Both the position numbers and the translations under genes were made by a program. 64,000 nucleotides of DNA. Source: an uncultured Pelagibacteraceae bacterium. Its GTDB lineage: Bacteria > Pseudomonadota > Alphaproteobacteria > Pelagibacterales > Pelagibacteraceae. The stretch is from contig CACHQX010000004.1 in the NCBI GenBank assembly GCA_902582235.1, positions 53,054 to 117,053 on the forward strand, read 5' to 3'. Position 1 is the stretch's first letter; every line of letters begins with the position of its first letter. The notes below the pieces were generated by a model, which saw only the letters and a list, made by a program, of their open reading frames with translations, was not told where the DNA came from and ran no database searches. Below are positions 6,769-11,259 of this stretch, one piece after another.

Positions 6769-7455
6769 TTAATCCTTTTTATATTTTTGCCATAAATCTG
6801 GTCTTCGGTGCCGTGTTATAGCCTCAGATTGTGATAAACGCCAGCTTTTAATTTTATTATGATCTCCAGATAAAAGTATGTCAGGAACACTTAATTTCTC
6901 CCATATTTGAGGTTTGGTATATTGTGGATACTCCAAAAGCCCATTTTCAAAACTTTCATCTTTTGTAGAATTTATATTTCCTAATACTCCAGGCACTAAT
7001 CTTAAAACTGTGTCTAAAACAACAAAAGAAGCCATCTCTCCTCCAGAAAGGATAAAGTCACCTATACTTATCTCCTCTACATTTCTAGAGTCTAGAACTC
7101 GTTGATCAACTCCCTCGAAGTGCCCACATAAAATATTAACTTTATTTTTTTTAACAATATCCTTTGCAATATCTTGATTAAAAATTTTACCTTTTGGTGT
7201 TAGATAATAAACTGTTTCTTTTTCACCCAAATTTGCGTCCAAAGATTTTGCTACTACATCTGGTCTCATTAACATGCCTACACCACCACCATATGGAGTA
7301 TCATCAACAGTTTTATGTTTATCATCTGCGTAATCCCTAATATTTATAAGTTTTAAATCCCAAAGCTTTTTTTCAAAAGCTTTTTTGCAAATACCTATTT
7401 CGAAAGGTCCTGGAAAATATTCAGGATACAAAGTAAAAATTTTCGCTTGAAACAT
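6769..7455 (-). CDS. trmD: tRNA (guanine-N1)-methyltransferase
   Basis: 228 aa; [41 protein letters not shown]; in the rplS-trmD-rpsP context. Confidence 0.97.
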
Positions 7456-7457
7456 AG

Positions 7458-7991
7458 TTATTTTTTCTTTTCTTCCTTAGGGGCCTCTGCTTTCTTTTCT
7501 ACTTTTGGTGCTTCAGCTTTTTTCTCTTCCTTAGGGGCCTCTGCTTTCTTTTCTGCTTTTGGTGCTTCAGTTTTTTTCTCTTCTTTAGGTGCATCCGCTT
7601 TCTTTTCTGCTTTTGGTGCATCAGCTTTTTTCTCTTCCTTAGGGGCCTCTGCTTTCTTTTCTGCTTTTGGTGCTTCAGACGAGTCTTTCTTTCTATCTTT
7701 TTTCGGAACAGCTTTATTTGGATTATTTCCTGGTTTAGGCATTTCCATTAAATTATTTTCTCCAAGTAATCGAGCAACTCTAGTTGTTGGCTTTGCTCCT
7801 TGGCTAAGCCAGTACTTTATTCTTTCTGATTGCAATCCAACTCTTTCCTTTTTTTCTTTTGGCATTAGAGGATTAAAAAAACCTAATTTTTCTATAAATC
7901 TCCCATCTCTTGGGAATCTACTGTCTGCAACCACAATTTTATAAACTGGTCTTTTTTTTGTTCCTCCCATTGATAATCTTAACTTTAACAT
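7458..7991 (-). CDS. rpsP: 30S ribosomal protein S16 with a long repetitive C-terminal tail
   Basis: S16 core [41 protein letters not shown], followed by tandem EAPKxEKKA units. Confidence 0.96.
7461..7676 (-). repeat. Intragenic tandem repeat: eight 27-bp (9-aa EAPK[AEV]EKKA-type) units encoding the S16 tail
   Basis: [72 protein letters not shown] read directly from the translation. Confidence 0.93.
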
Positions 7992-8004: not shown

Positions 8005-9363
8005 TTATTTAAGTTGATTGAATAGCTCAGGTGGAATTCCTTTTTCCATTAAGCCTTTTGTATTTCCTTTTGACATCTTTTTCATCATGTCAGACATCAT
8101 TTTAAATTGTTTTAACAATTTATTGATAGTGGCAATATCTGTTCCAGAGCCATTAGCAATTCTTTTTTTTCTTGAACCATCGATAATTTTTGGATTTTCT
8201 CTTTCTTTCTTAGTCATTGAAAGTATTACCGCTTCATTTTGTGTAATTATTTTTTCGTCAACACCGGCTTGGTCCATTTGTGATTTTATTTTTGAAACTC
8301 CAGGTAAAAAAGACATCACGCCCTCTAGCCCTCCCATTTTTTTCATTTGTCTTAATTGAGAAAGATAATCTTCTAAAGAAAACTGACCTTTCCTTAAACT
8401 CTCTTCAGTTTCTTTAAGTTTTTCCTCGTCAATTTCGTCTGCTGCTTTTTCTACAAGGGATACGATATCCCCCATTCCTAAAATTCTGTTAGCAATTCTA
8501 TCAGGATGAAAACTTTCAAAATTTTCTATTTTTTCTCCAATACCTAAAAATTTAATTGGAACATTGGCAATATGTTTCATGCTCAATGCAGCTCCACCTC
8601 TACCATCACCGTCAGCTCGAGTTAATATTATTCCAGTAACCTTTACTGTATTGGAAAATTCTTTTGCAACACTCGCTGCTACTTGTCCAGTTAATGAGTC
8701 CGCAACAAGTATAGTCTCTGTTGGTTTTATTACTTCTTCGATTTGTTTTATCTCAGACATCATCTGTAGATCTATTTGAGTTCTTCCAGCAGTGTCAAAA
8801 ATAATTACATCAGATCCATTTAAATTAGCTGCAGATAGGGCTCTTCTGCAAATGTCAGCTGGAATTTGATCTTTTATCACTGGCAAGGTTTGGATATTAT
8901 TTTGATCACCCAAAATTTTTAGTTGTTCCTGAGCAGCTGGTCTATAAATATCTAAACTTACCATCATAATTTTTTTCTTATTATTTTTTTCTAAAAATTT
9001 TGAGAGTTTTGCAGTTGTGGTTGTTTTTCCTGAACCTTGTAAACCAACCATCATTATTGTTACCGGGGGATTGGACTTTAAATTAATTTCTTGATTGCTG
9101 TCACCTAAAAATGAAACAAGCTCATCGTGAACAATTTTTACAACCATTTGTCCTGGAGCTGTAGATCTTATTATTTCTTTTCCTAATAATTTTGGTTTAA
9201 CTTTTGTTACAAAGTCTTTTACTACCTCTAGCGATACATCTGCCTCTAGTAAAGCTTGTCTAATAAGCTTAAGACCCTCATCAACCTGTTTTTCATTTAG
9301 AGATGGCGCCTTTTTAAATGTATCGAGTATTCCCTCGAATTTATTTGTCAAATTTTCAAACAT
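8005..9363 (-). CDS. ffh: signal recognition particle protein
   Basis: [20 protein letters not shown] start at 9363; [32 protein letters not shown]-terminal M domain ending [25 protein letters not shown]. The track's start at 9444 is upstream of the likely true start. Confidence 0.96.
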
Positions 9364-9470
9364 AATTTCTTCCAGCAGCAATCGCACCAGTGGGCGAACC
9401 CTCGCTGACTGGTGTCGATCTCTTTGTTTCCAAAGACACCGCAAAATGCTGTTTTTGCGGAAGTTGTGAG
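9364..9470 (-). ncRNA. Structured 5' leader RNA of ffh (candidate ffh cis-regulatory motif)
   Basis: On the minus strand: CCGCAAAA-ACAGCA-TTTTGCGG (9460-9439); GGTGT/ACACC enclosing CTTTG-GAAA-CAAAG (9440-9411); CACCAGT/ACTGGTG (9414-9385) enclosing GGG-TTCG-CCC. GGAAG lies just upstream of the ffh ATG. Confidence 0.75.
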
Positions 9471-9474
9471 AAAC

Positions 9475-9480
9475 TATAAT
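9475..9480 (+). promoter_or_regulatory. Possible -10 element (TATAAT) in the divergent ffh/dapF intergenic region
   Basis: Exact TATAAT 41 nt upstream of the dapF ATG at 9521; no convincing -35 seen. Confidence 0.3.
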
Positions 9481-9520
9481 AGAGGTTCAAAAAGTCAATA
9501 AATAAGTTAAGTATTATTAT

Positions 9521-10333
9521 ATGGATTTTAAAGCTTATAAAATGGATGGACTTGGAAATGACTTCGTCATAATTGATCAACGTGAAAAAAAATATGATTT
9601 AGACAATTCTCAAATAAAAAAAATTTGTAACAGAGGCAATATTGGTTGTGATCAACTAATTCTTATTAATAAAAGTGATAAATTTGATGCATTTCTCACT
9701 TTTAAAAATTCAGATGGCTCGGACTCCGCAGCATGTGGAAATGGAACTAGATGTGTAGCTAGCTTGTTATCAAAAGAAAGTTCAAAAAACTTTATTACTG
9801 TTGAAACTTCTTCAGGAAAATTAGAGTCGAAAATTTTAAAAAATAATTTGATTCAAACAAATATTGGAAAACCAAAAACTAATTGGGATCAAATACCTCT
9901 AAGCGAGAAAATTGATACAAAAAAAATAAAAGTTATGGTTGGTGATATTGAGTTTTTAGGAACAGCAATTAATGTTGGAAATCCTCACATTATTTTTTTT
10001 ATAAACGAATTAGAAAAGATCGAAATTAAAAAAGTTGGACCGATCTTAGAAAATCATGAATTATTTCCTGAAAAAGTTAATGTTACTTTTGCAAAAGAGC
10101 AAAGTAAAAATCATTTTAAAGTATTGCACTGGGAAAGAGGAGCTGGTCTTACAAAAGCATGTGGAACTGCAGCATGTGCAACTGCTGTAGCTGGTGAAAT
10201 TAACGGTATTTCAAAATTTCCAACTGAAATAGAGTTTAAATTAGGAAAAATTAAAATCAATAAAGATGAACAAGGAAACGTTATTATGGAAGGTTCAGTC
10301 TCAGAAATTGAACATATTAATATAAATATATGA
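9521..10333 (+). CDS. dapF: diaminopimelate epimerase
   Basis: KMDGLGNDFVIID, SACGNGTRCVA, ERGAGLTKACGTAACATAV motifs. Confidence 0.97.
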   Translation: MDFKAYKMDGLGNDFVIIDQREKKYDLDNSQIKKICNRGNIGCDQLILINKSDKFDAFLTFKNSDGSDSAACGNGTRCVASLLSKESSKNFITVETSSGKLESKILKNNLIQTNIGKPKTNWDQIPLSEKIDTKKIKVMVGDIEFLGTAINVGNPHIIFFINELEKIEIKKVGPILENHELFPEKVNVTFAKEQSKNHFKVLHWERGAGLTKACGTAACATAVAGEINGISKFPTEIEFKLGKIKINKDEQGNVIMEGSVSEIEHININI

Positions 10334-11259
10334 TTAATATTTTTCAAAAATTTAAGGATGGTTTAAAAAAAACTACATCAAATTTTTCAAAAGGTATAAA
10401 GGATATTGTTGTTAACAAAGAAATTGACGATAAAACTTTAGAGGAAATTGAAGAATTTTTAATTCAATCAGATGTTGGGGTTGAGGCTTCATCAGAGATT
10501 AGACAACAAATAGCTAATAGCAGAATTGATCCAAGTAAAAATAAACTGGATGAGATTAACAAAATTCTTAAAGAATATATTCTCTCATTAATGAAACCTT
10601 TAGAAAATAAAAATTTTTTTCATCAATCCAACGAGAATAGAACAATTTTAGTTTCAGGTGTCAATGGAGTAGGAAAAACAACCACAATTGGGAAAATGTC
10701 TAAAATATTTCAAAATAATAATAATAAAACAGTACTAGCTGCTTGTGACACATTTAGAGCTGCAGCAATAGAACAATTAGAAAACTGGTCAAAAAAAGTT
10801 GGAAGTGAAATAATAAAATCAGATGCAGGAAGTGATCCTGCGTCTGTCGCTTTTAAGGCAATGGAATATTCAAAAAAAAATAAAATTCATACAGTTTTGA
10901 TAGACACAGCAGGTAGATTGCAGAACAAGAAAAACTTGATGGATGAGTATAAAAAAATCGCAAATGTAGTTAAAAAAGTTGACAACAATGCGCCTCATGA
11001 TGTTGTTCTAATCTTGGATGCAACCTCAGGACAAAATGTAATAAATCAAGTGACAGAATTTAATAATATTATCCCTTTAACTGGTCTTGTTATGACAAAA
11101 CTTGATGGAACGGCAAAAGGGGGAATACTAATTGCTGCTGCAAAAAAATTTAAACTTCCAATAATTGCAATTGGTCTCGGCGAAAAAGAGGACGATTTAC
11201 AATCCTTTGATGCTGAAACTTTTGCAGAAAATTTTTTAAGTTTAGAAAAATCAATTTAA
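10330..11259 (+). CDS. ftsY: signal recognition particle receptor FtsY
   Basis: GVNGVGKTTTIGKMS, ACDTFRAAAIEQLENW, DTAGRLQNKKNLMDE, TKLDGTAKGG. Confidence 0.97.
   Translation: MINIFQKFKDGLKKTTSNFSKGIKDIVVNKEIDDKTLEEIEEFLIQSDVGVEASSEIRQQIANSRIDPSKNKLDEINKILKEYILSLMKPLENKNFFHQSNENRTILVSGVNGVGKTTTIGKMSKIFQNNNNKTVLAACDTFRAAAIEQLENWSKKVGSEIIKSDAGSDPASVAFKAMEYSKKNKIHTVLIDTAGRLQNKKNLMDEYKKIANVVKKVDNNAPHDVVLILDATSGQNVINQVTEFNNIIPLTGLVMTKLDGTAKGGILIAAAKKFKLPIIAIGLGEKEDDLQSFDAETFAENFLSLEKSI

Follow-up and report, generated by a model that had tools for sequence, protein, structure and literature searches.

The RF01793 leader of the ffh-rpsP-trmD-rplS operon in Pelagibacteraceae: a corrected structure and a candidate effector among the operon products

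Introduction

RF01793, the 'ffh' motif, was published in 2009 from 'Cand. P. ubique', where it was drawn as one bulged hairpin and assigned no function (PMC2704228). The motif was noted there to be unlike the part of 4.5S RNA that is bound by Ffh. An RF01793 'ffh' sRNA has also been placed in an intergenic region of a Mesorhizobium huakuii plasmid, with no mention of ffh nearby (PMC5596092). In S. meliloti, the sRNA candidate sm5 comes from the dapF/ffh intergenic region, and the portion of that source available to us makes no link to RF01793 (PMC2573895).

The leader described here is the same RNA, before the same gene and in the same organism group, as that of Meyer et al. 2009 (PMC2704228), with the same P3 hairpin and conserved cytosines. 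It differs from the published form, which lacks P1, P2 and P0 and in which an A.C position that covaries as a pair here is left unpaired. The name of the family suggests a ligand linked to Ffh, and our results disfavor such a ligand. With sm5 the leader shares the dapF/ffh intergenic position, a promoter and the size range (PMC2573895). The riboswitches SAM-II and SAM-V of SAR11 are likewise compact leaders close to the ribosome-binding site (RBS); their fold is different, and no ligand is known for the ffh leader. The autoregulatory leaders of ribosomal proteins (rpsB/S2, S15, L20) are cis-acting and head operons that contain ribosomal protein genes. The present leader resembles them in this respect, but it is only a putative binder of S16 and no rRNA mimicry was found in it. 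We know of no S16 leader.

Results

The window is the whole 64,000-nucleotide stretch analyzed. On its minus strand, positions 9364–9470 form a real structured leader before ffh, whose ATG start is at 9363. Its GC content is 49.5 %, compared with 30.6 % for the window, and its folding energy is −38.2 kcal mol−1 versus −28.4 kcal mol−1 for shuffled sequences (z −3.3). A cmscan search against Rfam, which had been proposed as a check, matched RF01793 at 9377–9429 (minus strand) with 58.3 bits (gathering cut-off 35, E 1.6e-8). The element is therefore RF01793 in its SAR11 form. It is already known, and the drawn structure is corrected and extended here. The candidate ffh leader motif of Pelagibacter mentioned in the first-pass annotation exists and is RF01793 (PMC2704228). 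The sequences and coordinates quoted in that annotation are all correct, and the folding comparison and the conserved hairpins support the claim made there of a conserved structured leader adjoining the ffh RBS.

The transcript runs in the order promoter-like element, hairpin 1, hairpin 2, hairpin 3, GGAAG and ATG. The promoter-like element (9471–9498, minus strand) consists of TTGAC (9498–9494), a 17 nt spacer and TAGTTT (9476–9471). It is conserved upstream of SAR11 leaders, and a similar TTGACT-N16/17-CTAGTT/CATAAC stands upstream of the RNA in other alphaproteobacteria. A simple consensus promoter scan missed TTGAC-N17-TAGTTT; if it is used, the transcript would start near 9463–9468. The Shine–Dalgarno-like GGAAG (9369–9373, minus strand) lies 5 nt before the ATG and is also the 3′ strand of P0. 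It overlaps a 3′ box, CGAUUGCUGCUGG (9372–9384, minus strand), whose YUGG is fixed 9–10 nt after P3 in most sequences.

The comparison spans about 200 genomes, some of them incomplete. RF01793 matches were found in 169 of 197 genomes in the family of the window (Pelagibacteraceae) and in 106 of 385 in the class, and the loci were fetched; one region without the motif (L218) was left out. All 80 matches of a phylum-wide search fall in Alphaproteobacteria. Like these, the window leader is a single copy upstream of ffh in an alphaproteobacterium, and it has the bulged, covarying P3 hairpin and the two conserved cytosines of the family. From 80 SAR11 ffh leaders gathered, 56 non-redundant ones were aligned and scored pair by pair. 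Because control shuffles ignore relatedness, we put weight on double changes, on declustered swapped-partner tests and on independent lineages. The class-wide swapped-partner test covers non-SAR11 alphaproteobacteria; the SAR11 part, which collapsed to one or two sequences, was not used.

Hairpin 1 (P1, CCGCAAAA-ACAGCA-UUUUGCGG, 9439–9460, minus strand) is real and conserved as first annotated, with 98 % of alignment cells paired. In a fixed-window comparison, the lengths of the P1 region vary over the class. Its base, which we call P1ext, joins CCG (9460–9458) with CGG (9441–9439), and here a G-C to A-U double change occurs in 12 of the 56 leaders, all in a single clade. A terminator scan flagged hairpin 1 as terminator-like with the tail TGTCTTTGGA, which is probably a coincidence of the loose tail rule of the scan.

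The two other stems were partly redrawn. P2 (9416–9441, minus strand) pairs CGGU (9441–9438) and UCUUUG (9436–9431) with CAAAGA (9426–9421) and AUCG (9419–9416), around a mismatch at 9437/9420. In the SAR11 alignment 99.3 % of its cells are paired, and seven of its ten pairs show double changes. Outside SAR11, matched partners are more complementary than species-swapped ones (z −7.9, p 0.0002; p 0.003 for the base strand alone). The inner UCUUUG/CAAAGA of hairpin 2 was thus correctly seen, but the outer GGTGT/ACACC was not: none of the 56 leaders shows a double change in it, 18 of them have lost its last pair, and outside SAR11 its matched partners are no better than swapped ones (z +1.1). Its predicted pair probability is 0, and changes of CACC to CACT or CATC track stem 3, not GGTGT.

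P3 (9385–9414, minus strand), drawn from the Rfam structure and covariation, pairs CACCAGU (9414–9408) with ACUGGUG (9391–9385) and GCGA (9405–9402) with UCGC (9397–9394). All of its cells are paired in the 56 leaders, with compensatory changes. RNAalifold draws the same P2 and P3 from the alignment alone, and this architecture is established computationally. The outer stem of hairpin 3 was annotated correctly, but its GGG-TTCG-CCC cap has no double change and is paired in 77 % of SAR11 cells and in 125 of 213 over the class. The alternative cap GCGA/UCGC is always paired, and class-wide it shows covariation. Two mismatches separate the halves of P3 in the window, C.C (9407/9392) and A.C (9406/9393). 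The C.C mismatch is kept in 70 of the 71 distinct class-wide P3 sequences. The position next to it is A.C in 52 of these, G.U in six, C-G in five, U-A in four and other in four; since it varies in this way, it is best read as a base pair. With this pair counted, the "internal loop" of P3 shrinks to one C.C mismatch, which is almost invariant.

The earlier observation is accordingly confirmed in part. The leader and hairpin 1 stand and two stems do not, and in the covariation check on SAR11 the outer stem 3 and the inner stem 2 covary whereas GGTGT/ACACC and GGG/CCC do not. The proposed competition of stems 2 and 3 for GGTG (9411–9414) is unsupported, as GGTGT/ACACC lacks covariation. The overlap of hairpins 1 and 2 is real, although it runs through CGG(U) (9441–9438) with AUCG (9419–9416) and not through the pairing first drawn. 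Base 9441 pairs with either 9458 in P1ext or 9416 in the P2 base, so that P1ext cannot coexist with the P2 base or, in SAR11, with P0. Conserved mutually exclusive pairings of this form are supported, with a putative effect on the RBS. A joint G-C-G to A-U-A triple change is found in 12 of the 56 SAR11 leaders and, on the Ffh tree, is one event within SAR11. Several other families of alphaproteobacteria have U-A or A-U as the outer pair of P2, with counterexamples at L140 and L210.

P0 pairs CUUCCG at the 5′ end (9458–9463, minus strand) with UGGAAG (9374–9369), which contains the Shine–Dalgarno sequence. In the SAR11 complementarity test, own partners beat swapped ones (z −3.9 to −6.7), and the composition-corrected test gives p 0.0002 for 51 leaders and p 0.004 for 18. 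A count in a fixed register gave no support, but it mis-registers the CCC leaders, and the register-free test is positive. The existence of P0 in SAR11 is thus statistically supported at the sequence level. Its register varies: 68 % of cells are paired in the fixed register, and many Ia relatives have only 3–4 pairs. No excess complementarity was found for P0 in the other alphaproteobacteria. Nearest-neighbor calculation gives −35.4 kcal mol−1 for the RBS-closed fold, which combines P0, a short P1, the full P2 and P3, and −31.4 kcal mol−1 for the RBS-open fold with extended P1. Along the transcript, hairpin 1 is the first to form. Because the two modeled energies are close, a bistable RBS is plausible in SAR11.

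Three further pairings were tried and rejected. A pseudoknot between ACAGCA in the loop of hairpin 1 and UGCUG before the RBS is attractive in the clade of the window; it is not above shuffles and loses support without near-copies. The centroid prediction for the window shows an extension of P3 by GAUCG/CGAUU, which is unsupported after declustering. Pairing of the leader with 4.5S RNA is no better than in shuffles.

The leader is followed on the minus strand by ffh (8005–9363; PF00448, PF02978, PF02881), the first gene after it, then by rpsP for ribosomal protein S16 (7458–7991; PF00886), the second gene and the candidate effector, trmD (6769–7455; PF01746) and rplS for ribosomal protein L19 (6218–6766; PF01245). 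The usual order is RNA-ffh-rpsP-(rimM)-trmD-rplS, and it is kept wherever the fetched alphaproteobacterial loci cover these genes. In some species, 300–540 nt lie between the aligned ends of the two genes, ffh and rpsP. RF01793 is found anywhere from 17 to more than 200 nt before the start codon, but it invariably comes right after the presumed promoter. According to a 2024 review, rpsP-trmD is a rare ribosomal protein operon whose regulation is unknown (PMC10931766).

Some further features of the locus were observed. In the window, rimM is absent between rpsP and trmD (7455–7458), and a search of the assembly, which is 88 % complete, turned up no RimM domain. In other alphaproteobacteria the rpsP-trmD gap has the size expected for rimM, and in L169 rpsP is followed by a RimM-like ORF. 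The S16 (7458–7991) and L19 (6218–6766) proteins of the window have long low-complexity C-terminal tails rich in K, E, A and P past their Pfam domains; the S16 tail in L169 has AP-rich repeats. Across the leader, dapF and ftsY (the SRP receptor) form a divergent unit (9521–11259), which places the genes of both SRP proteins around a single intergenic region. The 4.5S RNA of the genome (L001 1501–1599; G000:C5:55285–55383) scores 39.9 bits, just below the Rfam cut-off of 40, and its apical domain reads CAGG CUU GAAA AAG AGCA.

The next gene is ffh in about 170 RF01793 loci. The only exceptions belong to one alphaproteobacterial family with genomes of 0.9–1.4 Mb, here called f50 (genomes G245, G369, G464, G540 and G937–G950; loci L143, L148, L169, L231 and L291–L304). 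RF01793 is present in 14 of its 18 genomes, in all 14 directly upstream of rpsP. On the other side, dapF is divergent in 13 of the 14 loci, and L298 starts too near a contig end. When the 18 genomes were searched for the SRP54 GTPase, no protein of this type (Ffh, FtsY) scored above the profile cut-off in any of them; the same profile matches 14 of 14 control genomes. Below the cut-off, the trace in f50 is one 20.5-bit fragment in G939. The 4.5S RNA is absent in four of the four f50 genomes tested (93–97 % estimated completeness), and SecY is present in six of six. From these searches f50 is apparently an SRP-less bacterial family. Its P2 base carries further compensatory changes, CAGU/AUUG and CAAU/AUUG, and its Shine–Dalgarno sequence lies outside the RF01793 RNA.

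Discussion

We favor, tentatively and with slightly less than even confidence, the reading that RF01793 serves the entire operon as its leader: a 5′ multi-helix RNA that would act in cis as an RBS switch, with an operon product, above all S16, as effector. The RNA with P1, P2 and P3, and in SAR11 also P0, would head the ffh-rpsP-trmD-rplS transcript. In SAR11, the 5′ end CUUCC would pair with the Shine–Dalgarno sequence in P0 and close the RBS; alternatively, the extended hairpin 1 (P1ext) would free it. An effector that binds the conserved P2/P3 core would favor one of the two forms, closed or open. Switching at the RBS, a protein effector and its identity as S16 are what we infer from the sequence comparisons.

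The retention of the RNA ahead of rpsP in f50, which is itself a computational observation, is the reason that an operon product, above all S16, is a more likely effector than Ffh. S16 is encoded next to the RNA there. An autoregulatory leader for S16 would be expected to lie 5′ of an operon that contains rpsP and to stay with this gene when others are lost, and this is the pattern found. Several observations count against this reading. The P0 helix is variable, weak in many Ia relatives and unsupported outside SAR11, the Shine–Dalgarno sequence of f50 is not part of the RNA, and the G-C-G to A-U-A change that would link the exclusive helices is a single SAR11 event. Outside f50, ffh and not rpsP is next to the RNA, and in some species the 300–540 nt between ffh and rpsP intervene. 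No convincing mimicry of 16S rRNA by the leader was found in a crude test; the assembly of the window gave no 16S match, so the 16S rRNA of two SAR11 relatives was used. A more specific form of the proposal is less probable: RF01793 would be an autogenous S16 leader and the first known control of rpsP-trmD, SAR11 would have added P0 as a translational on/off switch, and ffh would be controlled merely as the first gene.

The main rival is a general 5′-UTR element with no specific effector, which would shield the 5′ end or determine how stable the operon mRNA is and how well it is translated. The constant position just downstream of the presumed promoter, despite the variable distance to the start codon, agrees with it, as does P0, which hides the 5′ end in SAR11. 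Such an element has no need of Ffh and fits f50 as well as S16 does. However, a stability hairpin does not need an invariant C.C mismatch, a conserved core and a 3′ box, and we consider this explanation somewhat unlikely.

Less likely still is that the leader yields, by termination or processing, a small RNA that acts in trans or is the product of attenuation. In S. meliloti, sm5 from the dapF/ffh gap was enriched among RNAs shorter than 200 nt; its length is predicted as 108–258 nt, and a terminator is also predicted (PMC2573895). An ffh leader RNA is listed in Bartonella RNA-seq data (PMC7717549), small RNAs were seen in metatranscriptomes (PMC2704228), and in other alphaproteobacteria the bases after P3 are partly U-rich. 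The S. meliloti and Bartonella RNAs show that the leader is transcribed and that a short form of it may accumulate. However, P3 of the window is followed by CGATTGC without a U-tract, the terminator scan calls no terminator at P3, and each genome has a single copy, placed at the head of the same operon.

Autoregulation by Ffh or SRP RNA, which the first-pass annotation had suggested, now appears very doubtful. Ffh binds RNA, and its gene follows the leader in about 170 loci. Against this, RF01793 is kept before rpsP in f50 with no detectable Ffh or FtsY and with no 4.5S RNA in the four genomes checked, and for this reason the suggestion is disfavored. The leader also has no likeness to 4.5S RNA: no SRP family matches it even at E values up to 5, and it has no excess complementarity to the 4.5S RNA of its own genome. 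Of that interpretation as a whole, the structured leader with conserved exclusive pairings is retained, whereas the named stems and the Ffh/SRP effector are not. The exact switch first drawn, GGTGT/ACACC versus CACCAGT/ACTGGTG, is scarcely credible: the window sequence permits the pairing and 93 % of SAR11 cells can form GGTGT/ACACC, but it has no compensatory change, is weakened by variants that preserve stem 3, is unsupported outside SAR11 and has a pair probability of 0.

The leader, first published in 2009, is a well-conserved structured RNA in the most abundant bacteria of the ocean. The corrected stems matter for its study, as mutants based on the published single hairpin or on the stems first annotated would target the wrong pairs. 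An apparently SRP-less lineage that keeps the RNA separates the Ffh hypothesis from that of a ribosomal protein, both of which the position of the RNA suggests, and it makes S16 the leading candidate effector.
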